Assembly: GCA_029265355.1 (NCBI GenBank)
Contig: JAJUJL010000001.1
Location: forward strand, 124,001-188,000
Source: Chloroflexota bacterium
GTDB lineage: Bacteria > Chloroflexota > Anaerolineae > Anaerolineales > UBA4823
Length of the DNA: 64,000 bases
Direction: 5' to 3'
Every line of letters begins with the position of its first letter. Position 1 is the stretch's first letter. The translations under genes and the position numbers were made by a program. The notes under the pieces were generated by a model. It was not told where the DNA came from and did not search any database. It saw nothing but the letters and a program-made list of their open reading frames with translations. Positions 37,094 to 50,056 of the stretch are shown piece by piece.

Positions 37094-38536
37094 ATGAGCA
37101 CGAAACCGACAGCTCAACCGCCGCCCCTGCCGCCAACTTTCCTGCAACGCATGCAGCGCCTGCTGGGAGACGATTTTGCCGCTTTCGTCAACAGCTACGC
37201 ACAGCCTGCCTGGAATGGGCTGCGCGCCAACACGCTCAAGATCTCTCCGCAGCGCCTGCAAGAATTACTGCCCTGGAATCTCGAGCCTGTGCCCTGGTGT
37301 AAAGAGGGGTTTTTGCTTCCGCCAGGCCAAGCCCAGGCCACACAACCCGCGCCGGGCAAACACCCCTATCACGCGGCGGGTGTGTATTATCTCCAGGACC
37401 CTTCAGCGATGGCCGTGGTGGAGGTGCTCGATCCGCAGCCAGGCGAGCTTATCCTGGACCTGGCCGCTGCGCCAGGCGGCAAGAGCACCCACATCGCCTC
37501 ACGCTTGCAGCAGCAAGGCTTACTGGTGTGCAACGAGATCCATGCCGGGCGCGTTTGGGAACTGGCTCAAAACCTGGAACGCTGGGGTGCGCAGAACGTG
37601 ATGGTGTGCAACGAAACCCCAGAGCGCCTGGCAGATCACTTTGAGGGTTATTTCGACCGTGTCCTGCTGGATGCGCCTTGCTCTGGAGAGGGATTATTTC
37701 GGAAAACACCCGCCAGCCGTAAGCAGTGGTCGCCCGTGGTCGTTGAGAGCTGCGCCTTGCGCCAAAGCGCCATCCTGGAGCAGGCCGCCAGGCTGGTGCG
37801 CCCGGGGGGATGGCTGGGTTACTCAACCTGCACCTTTTCTCCCGAAGAAAACGAGGCGGTGATTGCCGCATTTCTCCGCCAGCATCCGGGTTTCCAGCTT
37901 GCGCAGCAAGGCGCGCGGCAGGGCATCTCCCCGGGCAGGCCCGATTGGGCGAATGCCGGTGAAACACTCGCACCCGATGGGCTGCATCGCCTCTGGCCGC
38001 ACCTCAGCCCGGGAGAGGGCCATTTCATCGCCCTGCTGCAGCGAACTGGCGAAGAAATCGCGGCCTCACGCCCGGGGCGTTTCCCACGCACACTGCCGGC
38101 CGCGGCATCCAGCGCCTGGCACGAATTTGTGCAGCACAACCTGGTTTCAGATCCTGCCCAGGGTAGAGTGACCCAGTTCGGCTCTTACCTGTATGCGCTC
38201 TCTGAGCAGGCCCCTGATTTTGGAAAGCTCAGGCTGGTGCACCCCGGATGGTGGCTGGGAGCGCTGGCGCACTCTGCGCACAGCAAAGAACAACGCCTGG
38301 AACCCGCGCATGCCCTGGCGCTGGGTCTGAAACCCGCCGCCTTTCAGCGCAGCCTGCCGGTAGATTTCACTCAGGCCATGCGTTACCTGCAAGGCGAGGT
38401 GATTACATCACAGCCAGGAGAAGACGGCTGGTTGGTGGTCGAGTTCAATGGCTTCACGCTGGGGTGGGGAAAAAACATCTCGGGTAAAATCAAGAATCAT
38501 TACCCGCGCGGCCTGCGCCTGCCGCTGGCTCAATGA
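37094..38536 (+). CDS. rsmF: RsmF/NOL1-NOP2-Sun family RNA m5C methyltransferase
   Basis: A 480-residue methyltransferase. The N-terminal RNA-binding part includes ANTLKISPQRL and GVYYLQDPSAM. The SAM site is DLAAAPGGKSTHIA. The catalytic pair is Cys196 (DAPCSGEG) and Cys246 (STCTFSPEEN). A C-terminal PUA-like region from about 330 is present, as in RsmF/YebU and Gram-positive RsmF. It methylates cytosine in 16S rRNA or tRNA. The start lies 8 bp after the aminotransferase. The 3' end overlaps the convergent pseudo-kinase gene by 7 bp. Confidence 0.92.
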   Translation: MSTKPTAQPPPLPPTFLQRMQRLLGDDFAAFVNSYAQPAWNGLRANTLKISPQRLQELLPWNLEPVPWCKEGFLLPPGQAQATQPAPGKHPYHAAGVYYLQDPSAMAVVEVLDPQPGELILDLAAAPGGKSTHIASRLQQQGLLVCNEIHAGRVWELAQNLERWGAQNVMVCNETPERLADHFEGYFDRVLLDAPCSGEGLFRKTPASRKQWSPVVVESCALRQSAILEQAARLVRPGGWLGYSTCTFSPEENEAVIAAFLRQHPGFQLAQQGARQGISPGRPDWANAGETLAPDGLHRLWPHLSPGEGHFIALLQRTGEEIAASRPGRFPRTLPAAASSAWHEFVQHNLVSDPAQGRVTQFGSYLYALSEQAPDFGKLRLVHPGWWLGALAHSAHSKEQRLEPAHALALGLKPAAFQRSLPVDFTQAMRYLQGEVITSQPGEDGWLVVEFNGFTLGWGKNISGKIKNHYPRGLRLPLAQ

Positions 38537-40923
38537 GTGGCTTTTTTCGACAGTTGTTCAAGGCCAGCCCGAACCCGATTGTATTCTGCCAGGGTCCGGG
38601 TCATTTGGTCTTGTGCGGGGGCTAGCCCGCGTAGCTGCACCGTCTTGTGTGTTTCAGCGCACAGCTCAGCCAGGCGACGCGCGCCGATATTAGCGCTGCT
38701 GGCTCGCAATGTTTCGGCCGCCTCGAGAAAAGCAGTCGCATCCTGGCTATCGAAAGCCTGTTGCATTTGTACCAGTAAGCGGGCAGCATTGGAGGTGAAT
38801 AAATCTACCAACTGAACCAACAGCGCGGTAGCATCGCCGCCCGTCATGCGCGCAAACTGGCTCAGGAATGCGGCATCGATGGCTGGGTATTCCCCTCTAT
38901 CTCGCCTTGCAGCCTCGCTCAGAGCTTCCTGCATCATTGGGACCCCCTCCGCTGGATTGATTGTGCGCTGATCGGTCTGCGCCATACCGAGTGGTCTGCA
39001 ATCTTCCAGCGCATCGATCAGATCTCCGGCGTGCACGGGTTTCAGGATCACGGATTGCACATTGCTCGTGCTCGAGACAAGCAGTCCATCACCCGGCCGT
39101 TGATCTGCCAGCACCACCACCGTGGGTCTGGCGATGGGGGGCAGCAATTGCTCGATCTTTTCCAGCACCTCGACATCACCCGTAAGCAGTTCCTGATCGA
39201 TGATCAGCAGATCATAAGACCGGCGCAACAATGCTCGGAGCACCTCGCTAGAATTTTCCACCCTGTCTGGGTGGTACCCCAGGCGCTCCAGAAAGCCCAG
39301 GGTCACCTTTTGCTCGCCGGCCTCGAAAACCGCCAACAATATGTGGAGCGGATGGCGTTTAGCCATACCTGCATCCAGCAAAGTAGCGGTCTTTGCCGCT
39401 GGTTGGAAGCGGTGTTGCTCTACCAGCAGCCGGTTGATGGCTTCATAAAGCTGGTAGGGCTTATATGGCTCTTTCAGCACAACAGAGAGGCGGGGCAGGG
39501 CTTCGATTTGACCGGCGCCCTGGGGTATCACCAGAATCAGCGGTAAATTTTGCCCTGCGGCAGTTTGCCAAACTCGCTGCAAAAACACGTTTACGTCGAA
39601 TTCAGGCAAGTGTTGTACGAAAATCGCCGCATCCAACGCCCGCCCCGATTCGATGAGCTGCAAGGCCTGAGCCATCTCACCAACAGGTAGCGGCTTGAGC
39701 TGCCAGTACAGGAGTTGCTGCGCCAGTTCATTTCGCTGCTGTCCATCATGCGCTGCCACCAGTACGCTCTTACCCCCCAGCAACGGTTGCGTGTTACGCT
39801 GCCGCCGCCTGGCTGGCGGCCTGATTTCTGCAATGGTTTGAATGGTGAAGTAGAAAAGCACTTCCTTGTTGCGCTGGCAACCCACACTCAAATTGCCGCC
39901 CATTTTTTTCAGCAGCAGGCGACAGATTTCCAATCCCAACTGCATGCGATCAGTCGCTTGTTGATCCATGAGCCGGGCTGCATCCCGCTGCGCTCCTGCA
40001 GAGGAGCTGTACTTCTTGATCACAAATTGGATCTCGTATTGATCACGACCCTGCGGGCGGGCTTTCACCGAGGCGACGACCTCGCTGCCCTCGGCAAGCT
40101 GCACAGCATATCCCAGCAACCTGCCCAGCACCTGCCTCAGCCGAAGGGGATCCGCTTGCACCACTTCTGGCACTTCTGGTTCGATGAAACAAGCGATATT
40201 GGGATTTCTCACGGCGGTGTACGAACTGAGTAGTTCCAGGGCGTCATCCAGGCAGCTTCGCAGGTCCACCGCGGTTTGTGTGAGCTCCAACTCGCTGGAT
40301 CCCCAATGAACATAGTCAAGCAGATCATTCACCAGCACCAGGAGTGCATCCCCGCTGTTCTGTATCAGCCGGGCATACTCCTGCTGAGTGGCGCCGAGCG
40401 AAGAGTCGATCAGCAGCTCGATCATGCCCAGGATGGCGTTCAAGGGTATGCGAATTTGCTGCGCCATTCCAGAAAGCAGGCGATTTTTTTTAAGATCGCC
40501 GGCGAACGGGAGTTTCTCACCAGGCATAGCCTGTGCGCTGGCCCACGCCGCTGCAAGCTGCAGGCGTAGCCGAGCAGCCAGCTCTATCTCAGAAAACGGG
40601 CGCTCCAGAATTTCCCCAATGCCCTGTTCGAAAGCCCAGGCGCGTTGTGTGGCATCCGCCTCATTTTGCACCAGCACCAGGCGGGGCGTATGCTCAGGAC
40701 ACACACGATGGATCTCTTTTATCAATGCTTCGCAGGATAGGTCCGGCAAGCTGGCGTCAAAAATGATCACTTCCGGCAAATTCCCCCGCTCGAGCAGCGC
40801 AATTGCAGCCGCTGCATTCGGCGCCCAATGCAATTGGGCTTCAATTCTATCCAGCACAGATTGGAACGGTTGCCAACGCTCTTGATCTGCATCGATGATG
40901 AGCATCACGGGTTGCGCTGGCAT
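38530..40923 (-). CDS. degenerate hybrid histidine kinase-like protein (phospho-sites lost)
   Basis: A 797-residue protein with the full layout of a hybrid sensor kinase but broken chemistry. A receiver (about 6-120, Asp56 kept, the usual Lys replaced by Arg) is followed by a DHp helix pair. There the usual MSHEIRTPLN reads MAQQIRIPLN, so the His is Gln155. The ATPase-like domain has Tyr272 in place of the N-box Asn and no DxGxG loop. A second receiver has Val436 in place of the Asp. A third keeps Asp576 but lacks the acidic pair. The C-terminal HPt has Glu737 where the His should be (AAETLRASSANIG). It is soluble. The ATG at 40923 is 32 bp after the DUF6909-like gene. Confidence 0.87.
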   Translation of the reverse strand: MPAQPVMLIIDADQERWQPFQSVLDRIEAQLHWAPNAAAAIALLERGNLPEVIIFDASLPDLSCEALIKEIHRVCPEHTPRLVLVQNEADATQRAWAFEQGIGEILERPFSEIELAARLRLQLAAAWASAQAMPGEKLPFAGDLKKNRLLSGMAQQIRIPLNAILGMIELLIDSSLGATQQEYARLIQNSGDALLVLVNDLLDYVHWGSSELELTQTAVDLRSCLDDALELLSSYTAVRNPNIACFIEPEVPEVVQADPLRLRQVLGRLLGYAVQLAEGSEVVASVKARPQGRDQYEIQFVIKKYSSSAGAQRDAARLMDQQATDRMQLGLEICRLLLKKMGGNLSVGCQRNKEVLFYFTIQTIAEIRPPARRRQRNTQPLLGGKSVLVAAHDGQQRNELAQQLLYWQLKPLPVGEMAQALQLIESGRALDAAIFVQHLPEFDVNVFLQRVWQTAAGQNLPLILVIPQGAGQIEALPRLSVVLKEPYKPYQLYEAINRLLVEQHRFQPAAKTATLLDAGMAKRHPLHILLAVFEAGEQKVTLGFLERLGYHPDRVENSSEVLRALLRRSYDLLIIDQELLTGDVEVLEKIEQLLPPIARPTVVVLADQRPGDGLLVSSTSNVQSVILKPVHAGDLIDALEDCRPLGMAQTDQRTINPAEGVPMMQEALSEAARRDRGEYPAIDAAFLSQFARMTGGDATALLVQLVDLFTSNAARLLVQMQQAFDSQDATAFLEAAETLRASSANIGARRLAELCAETHKTVQLRGLAPAQDQMTRTLAEYNRVRAGLEQLSKKATH

Positions 40924-40955: not shown

Positions 40956-42680
40956 CTAGCCAGGCCGGCTCAAACGGACCTGTTCCTTGCACAAAATGCG
41001 CCGCAAGACAGCAATGCTGACCGCGTAAGTGGCGTCCAAACCGTAGTAAGAAAGGCTGCCTGCGCCCAGGTTCTTACCTTTGCTCAAGGGTGTATCTGAA
41101 GCATAGTGCAAGATACCCACCTCAAAGGGAACGCCATACAAGTTCACAATCTCGTTAATCGGGTGACGCTTGGGGCGATACATCTCATAAACCGCCGAGA
41201 GGTAAGGGCCGGCTTCCATCTCGATATCGGTGTAGCCTTCGCGATAAAACACATCCATATAGTGAGCGGTTTGCAAGAAAGTGCCCTGCACAGAGACCGC
41301 TTTTTGATTGTCCAGCACCGTGCCATAAGTCAGGTATGGGGATACGTCCGCTGCCGTGAAGCAATTTCCGAACAAGTAAGTGTTTTGAGAATGCTCGTCG
41401 TGCACCACATTCGAGATCATGGCATCCCCGATCACCCCATTCAACGTGGCAGCCTTGCCCAGCACGTATACGCCCAGGATGGAACCGACGCTTTCTGCCA
41501 CAACCGATAGAATGTGGTAAGCCGCCATTCCCAGCGGATAATCAATGTTCAACAGCAAGCCATCACTGCCTGGCAATTGGGTTGGGCACTCTGCGGAGAT
41601 CCCCTGCAGCAGGCGCGGGTCGAATCGTTCAGGCTTCAAGCGAGCCAGCTCGATCACCTGCGCTTCCACGTCGAAATACTGTGCGCTGCGAAAGCGCTGG
41701 ATTCCCAACTCCCGTTCGTAGGCATATTGCTCCTGCACCAGCCGGCTTCCTTCGTCCGTCTGCTGGAATTTCTTCAATAAATAATACAGGAAATTCTCCT
41801 GGCTGGAGAGCACCTCGGAGGCTTGAATATCCTGCCATTCGCGCTGCAATTCGATATTCCCCGAATTCTTCAGGTAATCTAATAATTCATTGCGCTTGTA
41901 CAGCGCAAAGCCAGACAGCAAATTCACCACGCTGTGGATGTTGCTGGAAATGAAATAAACGGGGCGATTGCGCAGATTGGGGCTGCTCTCCTCGATGTTT
42001 TCCCACCAGGAACGGGTCGCCCGGCGGTAATCGCTCAGGGATCCGCTCAGCAGGCGAATTTCCAATGAACAAGGCGCAGCAGCCACGCGCTGCAAATTCT
42101 CCTCGAAGCGCGCGCCCCAAATCGACTCTAAGCGCTCCAGGTCTTCTATGGTGATTTCCAGCGCCTCTGCCAGCTCCTGGCGAAGTGAATCGTTCCCTTT
42201 CAATTGGTGTAAGTTCCGGGCTGCTGGCGTTTGCTGAAGCAGGACGTGCAGCTTATTCCATTCGATCTGGTATGCCGTCAGCATTGGCACCAGGTCATCG
42301 ATATCCGAGCGGCTGGCGATGATTTGCGCCAGTGTGCCGCGCCCATCGGTAAAACTTCGCCGCCGCCGGGCTGGAGCATTGACCACCTGCCAGCCGTTTT
42401 CGACATCGTAACCTTCCCGCAGGAGCACCTGGATGCTCTGCCCCATTACCACCAGTTTCACATCCGGCATGCAGGCCGGCAATCGCAGCAGAGAGTAAAT
42501 AAAGGCGGACATATCCGGCCGCGACTGGCGCGCTCCCAGGTGCAGCAGCGAGCCCATCCCGGCGTGCGCTTCTTCCAGGGTGCGGATCTGCACCGTAGCT
42601 GTCGAGCGCAGCAGCGAATAATACGTGCGCAGGTAAAGCTCGACCTCTTCAGAGGCGGTGCGCGGTACAGTGCGTTCCAA
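40956..42680 (-). CDS. DUF6909-like protein with nucleoside-phosphorylase-like C-terminal part
   Basis: A 574-residue soluble protein that resembles the uncharacterised family annotated as DUF6909; this is from memory and tentative. The N-terminal half is helical and charged. The C-terminal half contains LLNIDYPLGMAAYHIL, VVHDEHSQNTYLFGNCF, DIEMEAGPYLSAVYEM and ILHYASDTPL. The EMEAGP and SD elements recall the active site of purine nucleoside phosphorylase and related nucleosidases, so a nucleoside-binding fold is possible. It lies 6 bp after the small membrane protein and 32 bp before the pseudo-kinase. Confidence 0.72.
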   Translation of the reverse strand: MERTVPRTASEEVELYLRTYYSLLRSTATVQIRTLEEAHAGMGSLLHLGARQSRPDMSAFIYSLLRLPACMPDVKLVVMGQSIQVLLREGYDVENGWQVVNAPARRRRSFTDGRGTLAQIIASRSDIDDLVPMLTAYQIEWNKLHVLLQQTPAARNLHQLKGNDSLRQELAEALEITIEDLERLESIWGARFEENLQRVAAAPCSLEIRLLSGSLSDYRRATRSWWENIEESSPNLRNRPVYFISSNIHSVVNLLSGFALYKRNELLDYLKNSGNIELQREWQDIQASEVLSSQENFLYYLLKKFQQTDEGSRLVQEQYAYERELGIQRFRSAQYFDVEAQVIELARLKPERFDPRLLQGISAECPTQLPGSDGLLLNIDYPLGMAAYHILSVVAESVGSILGVYVLGKAATLNGVIGDAMISNVVHDEHSQNTYLFGNCFTAADVSPYLTYGTVLDNQKAVSVQGTFLQTAHYMDVFYREGYTDIEMEAGPYLSAVYEMYRPKRHPINEIVNLYGVPFEVGILHYASDTPLSKGKNLGAGSLSYYGLDATYAVSIAVLRRILCKEQVRLSRPG

Positions 42681-42686
42681 AATCTG

Positions 42687-43070
42687 TTACCTCCGGCGAC
42701 GAGGACGATAGCGCTCGGGCGGAGCATCCAGCGGACCGTAGCGCGGCGGTCCAAGCACGCGATACATCAGCGAGTAGAGGAGGGTCAGTATGCCGAACCC
42801 TGCCAGCATCAATACAACCGCCACCAGCAGATTGGCAAACAAGTAGGGAATCCTGCCAATATAGGGGATGGTGATCGTTTGAGCCAGTTCGCGCGGCGTC
42901 GGCAACCAGCGCGCCGCCACATTGGCCTGCACCAGCAAGACCGCCCCTGCATAGGAGATGATTGGGATAAGCACCATCATCAGGCAACCAATGCCTCTCC
43001 ATACCGGGTGAATTTTCCAGGGGCGCTCCGCCTGGCGGCTGCGGATGCTGAATTTATCGTATTTCGTCAT
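42687..43070 (-). CDS. small two-helix membrane protein
   Basis: A 127-residue protein with two predicted membrane helices (about 29-52 and 78-103) and a basic, Arg/Pro-rich C terminus (PPERYRPRRRR). I do not recognise it. The ATG at 43070 overlaps the end of the FAD/FeS subunit gene by 17 bp, and a GGGAGGA ribosome site lies inside that gene, so the two are translationally linked. The longer open frame to 43133 has no ribosome site. Confidence 0.75.
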   Translation of the reverse strand: MTKYDKFSIRSRQAERPWKIHPVWRGIGCLMMVLIPIISYAGAVLLVQANVAARWLPTPRELAQTITIPYIGRIPYLFANLLVAVVLMLAGFGILTLLYSLMYRVLGPPRYGPLDAPPERYRPRRRR

Positions 43071-44535
43071 CGACTTCCTCCCCAAGCGGGCGCTTCGCTT
43101 GTATGTGCGCAGCGAGCTCAATCGCTTTGACAATCGAGTAATAACCGGTGCAGCGGCACAGATTGCCCGTGATGGCCTGCTGGATAGACTGGCGGGTTGG
43201 TTGCGGGTCCTCTTCCAGCAGCTTCACCGCCGACATGATGAAACCGGGGGTGCAGTAACCGCATTGAACTGCACCCTCCTCGATGAAGGCTTGCTGGACT
43301 GGATGGAGCTGTCCATCCTGGGCTACACCTTCGATCGTGACGATGTGCGCGCCATGGGCGCGCGGTGCAGGCACCATGCAGCTCATCACCGCCGCTCCAT
43401 CCAGGAACACGGTGCAGGCGCCGCATTCCCCTTCCGCACAGCCTTCCTTGGTGCCTGTCAACCCGATATCTTCGCGCAGCATGCGCAGCAGCGTTTTCTC
43501 ATGAGCGTTTTCGATGCGGTATTCGACCCCATTCACATGGGTGACGATCGGTTCCGCACCGCTGTGACGGACAACACGATCCAGGGGAGCTGCGCGCCAG
43601 GGCGCTTCAGCGCTAAAACCTTCCCCCCACAGCAAGGGTGCGTGTTGTGGAAAATCAGCCTTCTCTTGACCAGCCCGTATCCTGGCGAGGGCGCGGCGTG
43701 TGCAAACCCGCACCATCTCGCTGCGATAATCTGCTGGGCTGCGCACATCATCGATCGGCCGGGCAGCTTGCTGAGCCAGTTGAGCAGCCTTTATGATCAC
43801 ATCATCATCCAGCGCCAGGCCCTGCAAATAGGCTTCTGCTTCAGCGGCGTGGATGATCTTGGGCGCTACAGCACCCAATGTGATGGCAGCCCGCTGCACG
43901 CGGTCGTCCTCCAGGGTCAGCACAGCCGCCACGTTGACCACCGAGATGGCCTGGGAGCGGCGCAGGCCGAGCTTGATGAACATGCCACGCTGGTTCTGCT
44001 CCAACGCGGGGAAGGCAATGTCCACCAGTATCTCATCCGGGCGCATGACTGTCTTGCGCACGCCGGTGTAGAAATCCTCGAGCTTTACCCGGCGCTCGCC
44101 TTGCGCAGAAGCCAGCGTGACCCAGGCGCCCATCGCCATCAGCGGGGTGATGGTATCGTTGGCAGGCGAAGCGGTGATCAAGTTGCCCGCCACGGTGCCC
44201 CGGTTGCGAATCTGCGGCGCGCCCACTTCCCAGGCGGCTTGCGCCAAGGGGAAGCCACGCTCGATCAACAGCCTGGAAGCCACGCAATGGTTATGGGTGA
44301 CCAACGGCCCCAGGTGAATCACACCATCTTCATCCATGCTGATCTGATCCAGACCCGGCACGCGGGTGATATCTACCAGGGTCTCGATGCCGCGCCGCAC
44401 GCCGCGTTCGATTTCCAGGATCAAATCAGTCGCGCCAGCCACAATGCGCGCCCGTTGCCCTTGTTCGGATAAAACCTGCAAAGCTTCATCGAGATGGGTA
44501 ACGCTCAGGTATTCGTGCCACATATTTTGCTCCAT
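43054..44535 (-). CDS. xanthine dehydrogenase family FAD-binding subunit fused to 2Fe-2S subunit
   Basis: A 493-residue fusion. Residues 1 to about 290 are a CoxM/XdhB-type FAD domain with VAGATDLILEIERG and GAPQIRNRGTVAGNL. Residues about 330-480 are a CoxS/XdhC-type 2Fe-2S domain with CAEGECGACTV for the plant-type cluster and CGYCTPG plus CRCTGY for the second. The fusion order FAD-then-FeS is the reverse of eukaryotic xanthine dehydrogenase. No Mo subunit is adjacent; the one at 30.3 kb lacks these two parts and is the best partner candidate. It heads an operon with the small membrane protein, the DUF6909-like protein and the pseudo-kinase. Confidence 0.92.
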   Translation of the reverse strand: MEQNMWHEYLSVTHLDEALQVLSEQGQRARIVAGATDLILEIERGVRRGIETLVDITRVPGLDQISMDEDGVIHLGPLVTHNHCVASRLLIERGFPLAQAAWEVGAPQIRNRGTVAGNLITASPANDTITPLMAMGAWVTLASAQGERRVKLEDFYTGVRKTVMRPDEILVDIAFPALEQNQRGMFIKLGLRRSQAISVVNVAAVLTLEDDRVQRAAITLGAVAPKIIHAAEAEAYLQGLALDDDVIIKAAQLAQQAARPIDDVRSPADYRSEMVRVCTRRALARIRAGQEKADFPQHAPLLWGEGFSAEAPWRAAPLDRVVRHSGAEPIVTHVNGVEYRIENAHEKTLLRMLREDIGLTGTKEGCAEGECGACTVFLDGAAVMSCMVPAPRAHGAHIVTIEGVAQDGQLHPVQQAFIEEGAVQCGYCTPGFIMSAVKLLEEDPQPTRQSIQQAITGNLCRCTGYYSIVKAIELAAHIQAKRPLGEEVDDEIR

Positions 44536-44548
44536 GTCATCGGTATCA

Positions 44549-44660
44549 GATGTTTCGCCGAAAGTGACTCAACAAAAAAAGACGATAAACATCGGCGAAA
44601 CCCAGGAGAAGACCGCTGGTCTCATCACCGGGCTAAGCCATGCACTTTCGGCAGTTTACT
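44549..44660. repeat. 112-bp palindromic element, copy A (MITE-like)
   Basis: The left end GTTTCGCCGAAAGTG (44552-44566) is inverted at the right end as CACTTTCGGCAGTTTAC (44643-44659). An inner TCGGCGAAAC lies at 44592-44601. It aligns along its whole length with 51455-51565. It lies between the FAD/FeS gene and the xdhC stop codon and touches that stop. Confidence 0.7.
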
Positions 44661-45481
44661 CAGTCGCCCGACTGTTCGGACATATCTCTTATCAGCGCCA
44701 TTTCCTGACCGTTGCCGCCCTGGCGCAGCATGATGATCTCCGCCAGGATGCTCACGGCGATCTCTTCAGGCGTTTCGGCGTTCAATTCCAGGCCCATCGG
44801 AGAACGCACCCGGTCCAGCTTCTCCGCGGCAATTCCCGCCTGGAGGAGTTGTTTTCGAGTGGTGAGCCAGCGCCGCCGCGAACCAATCACTCCAATGTAA
44901 GCCGCGTCTGATTCCAGCAGCGCCGGCAGTCCTGGCACATCAATATTGACGCCGCGGGTGGTCAAAACCAGGTAAGTCCAGGGCGTTATCTTGAGATGCT
45001 GCGGCAGCTCAGCCATGGGAACGGCGAGGAATTCATCGCCATCGGGCACCATCTCCGGTGTGCAAAAATCCGGGCGGTCGTCGTTCACCACCACGCGAAA
45101 GCCCAGCCATTTGGCCAGGTGCGCCACAGCCTTGCCCACGTGACCGGCGCCGATGACCACCAGCACGGGTTTGGGTAAGATCGGCTCCACAAATACCTCC
45201 ACCTGCCCACCACACACGCCCGGGTCGCCCCGAGTCGGATCGGACATATTGTAGCTCAGCAATTGTGGGCTGCCGTCCAACAGTGCTTGCCTGGCGGCTG
45301 CGATGACACGGTTCTCCATCTCGCCGCCGCCCACGGTGCCCTGGATACTGCCATCCGGAAAGACGAGCATCTTGCTCGTCGCCCGGCGCGGGGTAGACCC
45401 CTGGCTGTGCACCACCGTGCACAGCGCAACCGCTTCATTCCGATCAACACACTCTGCTAAAGACCGGTAAATCGAGCTCAT
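44660..45481 (-). CDS. xdhC: XdhC-family Mo-cofactor insertion/maturation protein
   Basis: A 273-residue protein with the two XdhC parts. The N-terminal VVHSQGSTPRRATSKMLVF contains the conserved GS-P-R motif, and GTVGGGEME follows. The C-terminal Rossmann domain has VIGAGHVGKAVAHLAKWLG and GVIGSRRRW. XdhC binds the molybdenum cofactor, aids its sulfuration, and delivers it to xanthine-dehydrogenase-type enzymes. An ATG three codons earlier (45490) is also possible. It is 18 bp after the CBS-pyrophosphatase. Confidence 0.93.
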   Translation of the reverse strand: MSSIYRSLAECVDRNEAVALCTVVHSQGSTPRRATSKMLVFPDGSIQGTVGGGEMENRVIAAARQALLDGSPQLLSYNMSDPTRGDPGVCGGQVEVFVEPILPKPVLVVIGAGHVGKAVAHLAKWLGFRVVVNDDRPDFCTPEMVPDGDEFLAVPMAELPQHLKITPWTYLVLTTRGVNIDVPGLPALLESDAAYIGVIGSRRRWLTTRKQLLQAGIAAEKLDRVRSPMGLELNAETPEEIAVSILAEIIMLRQGGNGQEMALIRDMSEQSGD

Positions 45482-45499
45482 GCCATGCACCTTTCTTAA

Positions 45500-46843
45500 T
45501 CAAGATTCCAGCAGCCCCAGGACAGTCGGCAGGAGCTGCTTCTTCCGGGACACAACGCCTTCCGCCAGGCGCGTGCCATCCGGCTGTTTCGGATAGGGTA
45601 ACCCGCTCAACACAGGCGGCTCCTGCGAAAAGATCAGTCGACTCGAACCGCTGACCACATCTGTGACCATCAGCATGGCAAAATCGACTCCCCGGCGCTC
45701 TTGCAGCACGCGCAGTGCGTCCCTCAGTGGCTCGAGATAGTCTTTCAACTGCAGCAAGGAGGTCACTTCTGCCTGGGCAATGGCAAAGTTGAAACCACCT
45801 GCTTCGTACAGCTTCAGATCGGTGCTGACAATATCCTGAGGATCTCGGGTCGAGAGACCGGCGCCTGCTTCCACAACCTTCTTCCCATAGCTCTGGATCG
45901 TTTCCCCATGCAGGGGGCTGTTGCGGACGAACGCCCAGCGTCCCAATCGCTCTGCTGCGCGGTGGTCGCGTTCCGTGGTTGTGGGCGAGGAAAGGATCAA
46001 TGTATCCGAGAGCATACCTGCCAGCAGCAAGCCTGCCAGCGCTGGCGGCGCGCTCAGGCCAGCTTCTTCGATGCGCTCGGTGACCAGCGTGCTGGTGCTG
46101 CCCACCACATCCACCGAGAACTTAATCGGCATGTGGGTGGAGGGATTGCCCAGCCGGTGATGATCCAGAATCTCGATCAATTCCGCTTCATCCAGCGCGC
46201 CAACTGCCTGGTTCGGCTCGTTGTGATCCACCAGGATCAAGCGCAGCCGGGGCGGGTTGAGCACATCGCGTTGCCGGGTGACGCCCAGGTACTGCCCGGC
46301 GTCGTCGACGATCAAGAACTCGTTGTGCTCTTCGCGCAAAATGCGGTTGAGCATATCGCGAATGCGCGTGCTGGCGGTAAAACGCGGCACGCTGCCATCA
46401 CAGGCTTGCTCGCAGGGCAAGTCCAATATTTCGCTGATGCTCATTTCCTGCCGGCGAGGATGCGGCCCGACAAGCTCTGCGAACAGGTTGAACAGACTGC
46501 TTCCGGTGATCAAACCTTTGGGTGTGCCATCCTCGTTCACCACCGGGGCGACGCCGCCGGTGCGATTGGTGATCGCCCAGGCCTCGCGCAGCGGGTTGCC
46601 CGGCAAAACTGTGTCCAGCCGGCGGGTAACCGACTCAAAAACGGGCGAAGCATCGGTCAGCAGCAAGGGAGCTTCCAACCCCAGTTGCTTCAATACCCAG
46701 GAGGTTTGCGGGTTGGTTGGGCCAGCCCGGGCGGCGATGTACTCGCCGCCATCGCGTTCTCTTAATAACCAGGCATAACCCATTGCCGAAGCAATCGAAT
46801 CGGTGTCTGGGTTGACATGACCAATAACGTAGGTAGGGCTCAT
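45500..46843 (-). CDS. manganese-dependent (family II) inorganic pyrophosphatase with CBS domains
   Basis: A 447-residue DHH-family pyrophosphatase. Metal site: GHVNPDTDSIASA (His9, Asp13, Asp15), DHNEPNQ (Asp206) and LDHHRLG (227-231, with DHH at 227-229). The C-terminal substrate motif is SRKKQ (432-436). Between the first and second motifs, residues about 65-200 hold two CBS domains and no DRTGG domain, so adenine nucleotides probably regulate it. It is cytosolic. A canonical promoter lies at 46959-46987. It begins an operon with xdhC. Confidence 0.93.
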   Translation of the reverse strand: MSPTYVIGHVNPDTDSIASAMGYAWLLRERDGGEYIAARAGPTNPQTSWVLKQLGLEAPLLLTDASPVFESVTRRLDTVLPGNPLREAWAITNRTGGVAPVVNEDGTPKGLITGSSLFNLFAELVGPHPRRQEMSISEILDLPCEQACDGSVPRFTASTRIRDMLNRILREEHNEFLIVDDAGQYLGVTRQRDVLNPPRLRLILVDHNEPNQAVGALDEAELIEILDHHRLGNPSTHMPIKFSVDVVGSTSTLVTERIEEAGLSAPPALAGLLLAGMLSDTLILSSPTTTERDHRAAERLGRWAFVRNSPLHGETIQSYGKKVVEAGAGLSTRDPQDIVSTDLKLYEAGGFNFAIAQAEVTSLLQLKDYLEPLRDALRVLQERRGVDFAMLMVTDVVSGSSRLIFSQEPPVLSGLPYPKQPDGTRLAEGVVSRKKQLLPTVLGLLES

Positions 46844-46958
46844 GCTTATAGTTTCGCTTTTCCTTGAGATCCAGATAGGTAAACGAGCCTCTGCGGATTC
46901 ACCAGGTATCTATCCGAAATTATTAGGCACCCTCGACTTTTCGAACGGTTCTACAGTA

Positions 46959-46987
46959 ATTATAGAAACGTTGCCCTGGATAAGCAA
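46959..46987 (-). promoter_or_regulatory. sigma-70-type promoter of the CBS-pyrophosphatase/xdhC operon
   Basis: On the minus strand TTGCTT (46982-46987) and a perfect TATAAT (46959-46964) are exactly 17 bp apart. The leader before the ATG at 46843 is about 110 nt. No other gene is seen in the 46844-47035 gap. Confidence 0.7.
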
Positions 46988-47035
46988 GCTCGTTATCCCT
47001 TGTATGCGTTCGCATCGTGTCCGCCAGATCCAACC

Positions 47036-50000
47036 TTACAGTTCTGACGCTGCGGGTTCAAGTCTGCGCAAGCCGCGCCACACCTTCTCTGGCGTGATTG
47101 GATTGTCATCCACCTGCACACCGCAGGCATCCAACACGGCATTGCCCACCGCAGGCGCCACGCCATCCATGGGAATCTCGGCCACCGCTTTCACTCCGAA
47201 TGGGTGGGAAGGCTCATAGGTCTGCACAAAAATGGTATCCAATTCCGGCATCTCGTGAGCCTGGAAGATGTGGTAATCCTTGAAACTTTTCTCCCTCGCC
47301 ACGCCATGCTCATCGTACACCATCTCTTCACACACCGCGTAGCCAAGCGCCTGGGTCATGCCGCCCTCGATCTGCCCAGAAGCTGTCACCGGATTGACGA
47401 TCACGCCTGAGTCCACCGCCATCACCAGGCGATCCACCCACACCTGCCCGGTTTGGATATCGACTGTCACCTCGGCAAACTGGGCGGCGAAAGGCGGCGG
47501 AGAAACCGGCGACATGTAAGAGGCCACACCCATGATCTGCTCCTGATCGGCGTGATGCAAACTGTTATGGGCGACTGCTTCCAGGGTAACGAATCTGCCA
47601 TCCGGCGCAATTGCTTTGCGATCCACCAGGCGAATCTCCGCAGGATCAACCACCTGCTCAACGCTGGAAAGCATGCTTGCCGCCCGCTTTCGAATTCGCT
47701 CGGCGACAATCTGCGCCGCCCGCGCTACCGCCGCGCCCGAGATATACGTTGTGCTGGAGGCATAGGCGCCCTTGTCGAAGGGGGTAAAGTCTGTATCCGA
47801 AGAATAAGTGATCATATCCTCCAGAGGCACACCCAGCACCTCGGCAGCCATCTGCGCCAGCACCGTATCCGAGCCAGTGCCCAGGTCCGTCGCTCCCACC
47901 AGCAGGTTGAACGAACCGTCGTCATTCATCTTGATGCTTGCCCCACCCATATCCAGGTAGGGAATGGCGGTGCCCTGCATGACCAGCGCCGCGCCGATAC
48001 CGCGCCGCAGGTGCGGTTTGCCAGGGACAGCATGCCATTGCGGATTACCAAATTTCTGATCCCAACCGATCAGGGCTTTGCCTTGCCGGGCGCACTCTTC
48101 CAGCCCGCAGGTTTGGATGGTTTCGGGGCGCGGCTCGCGGCCCTCACTCCAGGCGGTGCTGAAAGGATGCAGCTCCCCGGCGCGCAATGCATTCTTCAAA
48201 CGGAATTCCACCGGGTCCATACCCAACTTTCGGGCAATTTTTTCCATGTGGCGCTCGAGTGGCCAATAGCCCTGCGGAACGCCATAACCGCGGTAGGCGC
48301 CCGCCGGTGGGGTATTGGTGTACACGATATCCGCATAGAAGCGGATATTGGGCGCCTGGCGGTATGGGCCGTCGCCGACATACAACGCCATTGCCTTGTG
48401 CCCGGTGTTACCGGTGACGGTCAGGGCATGGCAACCATAAGCGCCCGTATCGCTGAGGGCATACATGGCATTGGCGGTGATGGTGCCATCTTTCTTTACG
48501 CCGGTTTTCAAGCGGATGCGCATGGGGTGGCGGGAGCGGGCTGCGGTAAACTCCTCCTCGCGGGTGTACTCGTAATACACCGGTCTCCCGGTAGCGATGG
48601 TGAGGTGGGCGGCAACATCTTCGATCAGCACTTCTTGCTTTCCGCCAAAGCCACCGCCGATGCGCGGCTTGATCACCCGGATGCGCTTGACTGGCAAACC
48701 CAACACGGGCGCCAGGATACGGCGCACATGAAATGGCACCTGGGTGCTGGTGCGAATCACCAGGCGGTCGTCTTCGTCCCAATAGGTGATCGTCACATGC
48801 GGCTCAATGTGCGCCTGCTGCACCTTGGGCACCCGGTACTCCGCCTCGAAGATCTCATCGGCCTCAGCAAAACCGCGTTCGACATCACCGATATCGATGC
48901 GGATCTCGGCTGCCAGGTTGCGAGCAGGGTCAGAATGAGCAAAGTTAACGTACTCCGGCTCATCGTGCAGGCGCGGCGCTCCAGGCTGCATCGCCTCGGC
49001 TGGATCCAACACGACTGGCAGCGGCTCGTATTCGACATCGATCAATTTCAGCGCCTGCTCAGCGATCTCAGCCGTTTCTGCCGCGACGAAGGCTACCCGG
49101 TCACCCACGAAGCGCACTTTGTTATCCAGCGAGAAGGTGTCCAATGGCCCAGGGATTGGATCCGATTGACCGGCAGTGGAATACGCCACGCGCGGCAGAT
49201 CCTGCCAGGTGAGCACCGCAGCCACGCCGGGTAAGGCGCGGGCGCGCCCGGTATCGATGCGCTTGATGCGCGCATGCGCCAGCGGGCTGTGCAGCACCTT
49301 AGCAACCAGCATATCGCGGCGCTCGAAATCGGCGGCAAAAGCCGGTTTGCCCTGCACCAGCTTGACGGCATCCACCTTGGGCTCGGGCTTTCCCACGCGC
49401 TGCCAGGTTTGGGCTTCGCCGGCGAGTTGCATGCGAGGCAGGATGCGAGTGCGCGTCGTTGTGCTAGCAGCGCCAGTTTCAGGCGCCCAGCCAGGGGAAT
49501 CGAGCCCAGGTTCTTTGGCGCCGGCAGGCGGGGTAGAATCCAATGGTAGACCCTCCAGCGGCTCAGGCGTCTCGCCGCGCAGCGCCGCCGCAGCGCGCAA
49601 TACAGCCTGCACCGGTTTGAGATAGCCAGTGCAGCGGCACAGGACGCCGGAGAGCGCCTGGCGCACGTCTTCTTCCGTGGGATCGGGATTGCTCTGCAGC
49701 AGGTGCCAGGCAGCTAAGACCTGGGCCGGCGTGCAATACCCACATTGAATGGCTCCTGTCTCGACAAAGGCTTTCTGCAAGGGGTGAAGACCTTGCGTCA
49801 CCCGCCAGCCCTGGACAGGGTGTTCGCCCAACGCCTCGATCGTTTCTATCTCATGCCCTTCAGCTTGGGCGGCCAGCATCATGCAGGAATTTACCGGCTT
49901 GCCGTCCAGCAGCACGGCGCACGCACCGCATTCGCCAGTTTCACAACCATGTTTTACGCCATACAGGCCATTCTTTCGCAATATATCTAGCAGCGAAGCC

Positions 50001-50056
50001 GCGGGGGCTGCTTCGACAGCAAACTCTTTGCCATTCACACGAAGCTGTAGATGCAT
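47036..50056 (-). CDS. xanthine dehydrogenase family 2Fe-2S / molybdopterin-binding fusion subunit
   Basis: A 1006-residue fusion. Residues 1-160 carry two 2Fe-2S clusters (Cys38, 43, 46 and 58; Cys105, 108, 140 and 142). A Pro/Gly/Ala-rich linker of about 60 residues follows. The Mo domain starts at VGKPEPKVDAVKLVQGKPAF. It has IGGGFGGKQE, YRGYGVPQGYW, GATDLGTGSDTVLAQMAAE and catalytic Glu960 in GVKAVAEIPMDG. The FeS-Mo fusion lacks the FAD subunit; the lone FAD subunit at 58948-59712 would complete it. The ribosome site AAGGAGA is just upstream. The substrate is unknown. Confidence 0.93.
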   Translation of the reverse strand: MHLQLRVNGKEFAVEAAPAASLLDILRKNGLYGVKHGCETGECGACAVLLDGKPVNSCMMLAAQAEGHEIETIEALGEHPVQGWRVTQGLHPLQKAFVETGAIQCGYCTPAQVLAAWHLLQSNPDPTEEDVRQALSGVLCRCTGYLKPVQAVLRAAAALRGETPEPLEGLPLDSTPPAGAKEPGLDSPGWAPETGAASTTTRTRILPRMQLAGEAQTWQRVGKPEPKVDAVKLVQGKPAFAADFERRDMLVAKVLHSPLAHARIKRIDTGRARALPGVAAVLTWQDLPRVAYSTAGQSDPIPGPLDTFSLDNKVRFVGDRVAFVAAETAEIAEQALKLIDVEYEPLPVVLDPAEAMQPGAPRLHDEPEYVNFAHSDPARNLAAEIRIDIGDVERGFAEADEIFEAEYRVPKVQQAHIEPHVTITYWDEDDRLVIRTSTQVPFHVRRILAPVLGLPVKRIRVIKPRIGGGFGGKQEVLIEDVAAHLTIATGRPVYYEYTREEEFTAARSRHPMRIRLKTGVKKDGTITANAMYALSDTGAYGCHALTVTGNTGHKAMALYVGDGPYRQAPNIRFYADIVYTNTPPAGAYRGYGVPQGYWPLERHMEKIARKLGMDPVEFRLKNALRAGELHPFSTAWSEGREPRPETIQTCGLEECARQGKALIGWDQKFGNPQWHAVPGKPHLRRGIGAALVMQGTAIPYLDMGGASIKMNDDGSFNLLVGATDLGTGSDTVLAQMAAEVLGVPLEDMITYSSDTDFTPFDKGAYASSTTYISGAAVARAAQIVAERIRKRAASMLSSVEQVVDPAEIRLVDRKAIAPDGRFVTLEAVAHNSLHHADQEQIMGVASYMSPVSPPPFAAQFAEVTVDIQTGQVWVDRLVMAVDSGVIVNPVTASGQIEGGMTQALGYAVCEEMVYDEHGVAREKSFKDYHIFQAHEMPELDTIFVQTYEPSHPFGVKAVAEIPMDGVAPAVGNAVLDACGVQVDDNPITPEKVWRGLRRLEPAASEL

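Follow-up and report, generated by a model that had tools for sequence, protein, structure and literature searches.

A hybrid histidine kinase homologue with an incomplete active site in each of its six modules

Introduction

A 64,000-nucleotide window of a Chloroflexota genome (assembly GCA_029265355.1, contig JAJUJL010000001.1, positions 124,001 to 188,000) contains a gene whose product has the module order of a hybrid histidine kinase and substitutions at its phosphorelay residues. Is this gene decaying or maintained by selection, and what could its product do once the relay chemistry is gone?

Pseudo-histidine kinases and pseudo-receivers are already known. A survey found phospho-site residues missing in ~0.9% of HisKA domains, 0.9% of Hpt domains and 2% of receivers (PMC12632262). 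DivL sets cell fate without kinase activity (PMC4211667), and the RetS kinase core blocks GacS autophosphorylation even when both of its dephosphorylation mechanisms are disabled (PMC5992135). What stands out here is the degeneration of all six modules in one protein; a search of open papers returned no published hybrid kinase degenerate in all of its modules.

Results

Domain architecture

The gene (38530..40923, minus strand) is a 797-codon frame read from 40923 to 38530 with zero internal stops, and its ATG is preceded, a few bases upstream, by a ribosome-binding-like AGAGGCGG. The domain order given in the initial annotation, receiver - DHp - ATPase - receiver - receiver - HPt, was confirmed by Pfam, by alignment and by the six folds of an AlphaFold model. 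In the Pfam search proposed with that annotation, HisKA (7e-14), Response_reg (5e-13) and Hpt (5e-9) scored above their cut-offs and HATPase_c fell just below (23.9 vs 26.4 bits). All modules lie on the minus strand. REC1 (about residues 7-124; 40552..40905) was placed by Pfam, alignment and predicted structure and is the strongest Pfam receiver match in the protein (Response_reg 8-119). It is followed by DHp (about 144-212; 40288..40494; Pfam and alignment), the ATPase domain (about 213-365; 39829..40287; alignment), REC2 (about 384-505; 39409..39774; alignment and receiver fold), REC3 (about 525-645; 38989..39351; alignment) and HPt (about 685-797; 38533..38871; Pfam and fold match). Pfam revealed no sensor domain beyond this set. 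The nearest named NCBIfam relatives are TorS, BarA and ArcB, all far under their cut-offs.

The presence of DHp, ATPase, receiver and HPt domains in order and with homologous sequence places the protein among HisKA-type hybrid histidine kinases with a REC-REC-HPt tail. As judged from this homology, it descends from an ordinary DHp-ATPase-REC-REC-HPt hybrid kinase. It lacks the catalytic residues of that class (Q155, Y272, KYSSS for DTGIG, V436, V532-F533 and E737). With a HisKA fold and no phospho-acceptor His, it is a pseudo-histidine kinase in the broad sense. Each of its receivers lacks at least two of the five active-site residues, the absence of at least one of which defines a pseudo-receiver. 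The pseudokinase is a soluble protein, and none of its six modules has a complete active site.

Residues lost and kept

The pseudokinase was aligned from residue 131 onward with 46 hybrid kinases drawn from its own family, order and class. The two phosphorelay histidines initially called as replaced were identified exactly: His155 of DHp is Gln and His737 of HPt is Glu. These columns hold His in 46/46 and 31/31 relatives, respectively, and the equally well-called Tyr272 of the N-box and Val436 of REC2 stand where relatives have Asn (46/46) and Asp (45/46). Further DHp substitutions are Glu156 to Gln and Thr159 to Ile, and helix 1 retains 13 of its 19 other conserved positions. A shifted phospho-His in DHp was ruled out, as helix 1 (143-172) contains no His at all.

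Substitutions in the ATPase domain are Asn268 to Arg, Asn272 to Tyr, Lys275 to Gln and Gly328 to Gln, and deletions have removed five residues from the lid and YGG from the G2 loop. The DxGxG loop is indeed missing, KYSSS occupying the G1 box where relatives have DTGIG. In REC2, the acidic pair has become Ala-His, Asp436 is Val and Lys485 is Glu. REC3 has Val-Phe in place of its acidic pair, as had been claimed, and Ala for Thr606, with Asp576 and Lys628 kept. HPt additionally carries Arg for Lys740. In REC1, alignment indicates that Asp11 and Asp56 are kept, and that Ala12, Gln86 and Arg108 replace the second acid, Thr and Lys. The initial conclusion that the chemistry is gone holds insofar as every module is incomplete; it was slightly overstated, since the receiver aspartates Asp56 and Asp576 survive, both inside incomplete sites.

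Loss is concentrated at catalytic positions. A single residue accounts for at least 90% of the entries in 131 alignment columns, 22 of them catalytic by textbook definition and 109 not. The pseudokinase has replaced 19 of the 22, retaining Gly330, Asp576 and Lys628, vs 49 of the 109 others (60 kept; Fisher p 3.5e-4). Invariant hydrophobic positions are still hydrophobic in 39 of 41 cases. In leave-one-out controls, every homologue retained at least 81% of its catalytic positions. The early description of an intact frame with conserved fold residues is thereby borne out.

These data also bear on whether a sequencing or assembly artefact masks normal motifs. In favour of an artefact, the assembly is a draft of 64 contigs. 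However, the lost motifs are all clean substitutions, the alignment around them has hardly any gaps, the frame is unchanged, and the gene sits within a contig of 464 kb, flanked by genes of conserved order. A frameshift hiding the real motifs, which the initial annotation had itself raised as a way to overturn its reading, was not seen. We consider the chance of an artefact negligible.

Predicted structure

The AlphaFold model contains all six folds with a mean pLDDT of 77.8 and values around 90 across much of REC2, REC3 and HPt. Because the underlying alignment is made up of homologues that are active, the model gives moderate fold support for the domains other than REC1. REC1 was modelled with receiver-like strands and helices, though hardly any other alignment row spans it. 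Among the solved structures nearest in sequence and fold are ShkA, GacS, RetS and the RetS-GacS DHp complex 7n0e. HptB is the best solved match to HPt (Z 17.8), and REC2 matches receiver folds with Z up to 18.4.

Genomic context and distribution

Directly upstream, 32 nt before the pseudokinase start, lies the gene for a DUF6909 protein (40956..42680, minus strand). It is preceded by a cluster on the same strand (42687..50056) that is conserved in relatives and encodes xanthine dehydrogenase-type molybdenum hydroxylase subunits, an XdhC-like protein, a DHH/DHHA2/CBS protein and a small membrane protein. On the other side, the stop of an RsmF-type rRNA methyltransferase gene (37094..38536, plus strand) overlaps the pseudokinase stop by 7 nt. 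No terminator-like site was found in the 32-nt gap, and gene order suggests that the pseudokinase is probably co-transcribed with the molybdenum-hydroxylase/DUF6909 cluster as its final gene. Among the neighbours scanned there was no partner kinase, regulator or other two-component gene, which counts against the explanation we favour below. The locus matched no defence-system model.

Several neighbouring features merit description in their own right. Of the 14 relatives, 13 have DUF6909 together with the xanthine dehydrogenase-type genes in this conserved cluster, which suggests a role alongside molybdenum hydroxylases. The small, probable membrane protein (42687-43133) is kept in relatives at 35-57% identity and belongs to no Pfam family; its coding sequence overlaps the end of the FAD/2Fe-2S fusion gene upstream. 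Elsewhere in the genome, contig C7 carries active hybrid kinases at two loci, L002 and L003. The L003 kinase has normal motifs in its DHp, ATPase and HPt domains and in its last receiver, but its first receiver lacks the phospho-Asp and is a ShkA-like pseudo-receiver.

No orthologue of the pseudokinase was detected in its genus, which comprises one genome, in 38 family genomes, in samples of 400 order, 396 class and 400 phylum genomes, or in a scan of genome contigs and plasmids. In the family, order, class and phylum, the best matches were 30-34% identical, began at about residue 89-146 and for the most part were active hybrid kinases of large size; over all searches, the top hits were hybrid kinases of about 30% identity that aligned from about residue 141. 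A query restricted to REC1-DHp returned nothing from 298 class genomes except the protein itself. The DUF6909 regions of 14 family genomes likewise contained no relative, the top phmmer score there being 13 bits for a receiver-like ORF elsewhere. In these regions, DUF6909 faces RsmF directly in four genomes and an aminotransferase gene, with no RsmF between, in eight; of the remaining two, one has the upstream cluster and a different downstream gene and the other an unrelated context. Since the surrounding genes are conserved and the pseudokinase is absent in relatives, the gene is best read as a lineage-specific, fast-evolving insertion ending the molybdenum-hydroxylase/DUF6909 cluster. Its G+C content resembles the surroundings, and the search for mobile-element repeats at its ends returned short repeats only, none flanking the gene.

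Selection or decay

Given that no orthologue was found, the case for selection draws on simulation, on codon usage and on which residues are kept. Neutral substitution was simulated from four active homologues in 160 runs, each run to equal catalytic loss; indels were omitted, which favours the neutral null. At that point simulated genes had accumulated a mean of 23-26 stop codons (minimum 9), compared with none in the real gene, and kept 21% of the other invariants (maximum 58%), compared with the 55% observed. The codon preference of the pseudokinase (0.075) lies well above that of random synonymous codons (mean -0.16, maximum -0.10).

Two features of the sequence also count against the favoured explanation. 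Codon preference is below that of neighbouring genes (0.11-0.25), and the end branch in the tree is about 13 times the median (5.72 vs 0.43 changes per column), which also fits weakened constraint. This very long branch makes the tree placement of the pseudokinase unreliable. Together with the occurrence of the gene in a single genome, these features would fit a hybrid kinase pseudogene in decay. Nevertheless, we judge decay very unlikely: there are no stops or frameshifts, loss falls preferentially on catalytic sites, the hydrophobic core is retained, and codon bias clearly exceeds random. The data fit a lifting of catalytic constraint with the folds probably remaining under selection, so the initial view of selection rather than decay is well supported. 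A very recent loss of function may have followed a selected phase.

Discussion

With the relay chemistry gone, the remaining assets of the protein are its dimerisation bundle and docking surfaces. Parts of this sort can govern other kinases through binding, as DivL (PMC4211667) and the inhibition of GacS by RetS without phosphotransfer (PMC5992135) show, and the scaffold or sensor role initially proposed for the protein is plausible. By alignment, the residues for autophosphorylation, phosphatase activity and phosphotransfer are lost, and the dimerisation helices and folds retained. We therefore favour, at a probability of roughly 55%, a binding-only pseudokinase that would act on other proteins without phosphate transfer. 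Binding would be stoichiometric: the DHp bundle and the pseudo-receiver and HPt surfaces could dock to an active hybrid kinase or form a hetero-dimer with it. The docking target might instead be that kinase's response regulator or HPt, and in each case the activity of the partner would change. Co-transcription with the molybdenum-hydroxylase/DUF6909 cluster would link the level of the pseudokinase to that pathway. A fuller history, in which the whole phosphorelay chain of one polypeptide was converted module by module under selection into a signalling scaffold that works without phosphate, and was drawn into a metabolic cluster in one lineage, is a more tentative proposal, which we hold at somewhat less than even odds.

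The surviving aspartates of REC1 raise another possibility, that this module is a working input, Asp56 being phosphorylated by a partner kinase or acetyl phosphate and thereby opening or closing an inert output scaffold. REC1 retains Asp11 as well, occupies the usual place of an input domain right before the DHp helix, and is the protein's top Pfam receiver match. However, replacement of its second acid, Thr/Ser and Lys makes it a pseudo-receiver by the five-residue definition, and we regard a working input as unlikely.

We are more doubtful still that the protein is a ligand sensor, in which a pseudo-receiver or the emptied ATP pocket would bind a small molecule and so alter protein contacts. 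Its top solved fold match, ShkA, has a ligand-controlled pseudo-receiver (PMC12632262). The binding of c-di-GMP by the ShkA pseudo-receiver and of quinones by that of CikA provide precedents, and the pseudokinase has no other sensor domain. Yet no binding motif was seen, and the kinase that the ShkA pseudo-receiver controls in cis is dead here.

Several known proteins resemble the pseudokinase in part. The plant pseudo-HPt AHP6, like the HPt described here, has lost its His; it is a stand-alone protein and works as an inhibitor. ShkA, which has no HPt, shares the DHp-ATPase-pseudoREC-REC order. This Caulobacter protein (PDB 6qrj) contains a pseudo-receiver, but unlike in the pseudokinase its kinase and last receiver are active. 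The enterobacterial RcsD similarly joins a pseudo-histidine kinase domain to an HPt, but that HPt hands phosphate to RcsB (PMC3762810), whereas Glu replaces the HPt His here.

In the Caulobacter pseudo-histidine kinase DivL (PMC4211667), as in the pseudokinase, the DHp His is replaced and the folds are kept. DivL binds a regulator and controls a hybrid kinase, a mode of action that is only proposed for the pseudokinase. Apart from the Tyr, the H, N, G1, F and G2 boxes of DivL are kept, whereas every box is damaged here; DivL has PAS domains and no receivers or HPt, and it is conserved across alphaproteobacteria. With no PAS domain, Gln rather than Tyr at the His site and its boxes lost, the pseudokinase is not a DivL orthologue. 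Pseudomonas RetS (PMC5992135; PDB 7n0e, 6dk7) is a near solved relative of the DHp-ATPase core at about 30% identity. Both proteins are of hybrid architecture, and the RetS core inhibits another kinase without phosphotransfer; the resemblance of the pseudokinase to such an antagonist is one of fold and sequence only.

The characterised proteins considered above, whether pseudo-kinases or pseudo-receivers, lack the chemistry of one module, and phosphate is still relayed by some other module or by a partner. With none of its modules complete, the pseudokinase separates what a phosphorelay does by binding from what it does by chemistry. It would be a clean test of whether phosphorelay folds signal by contact alone.
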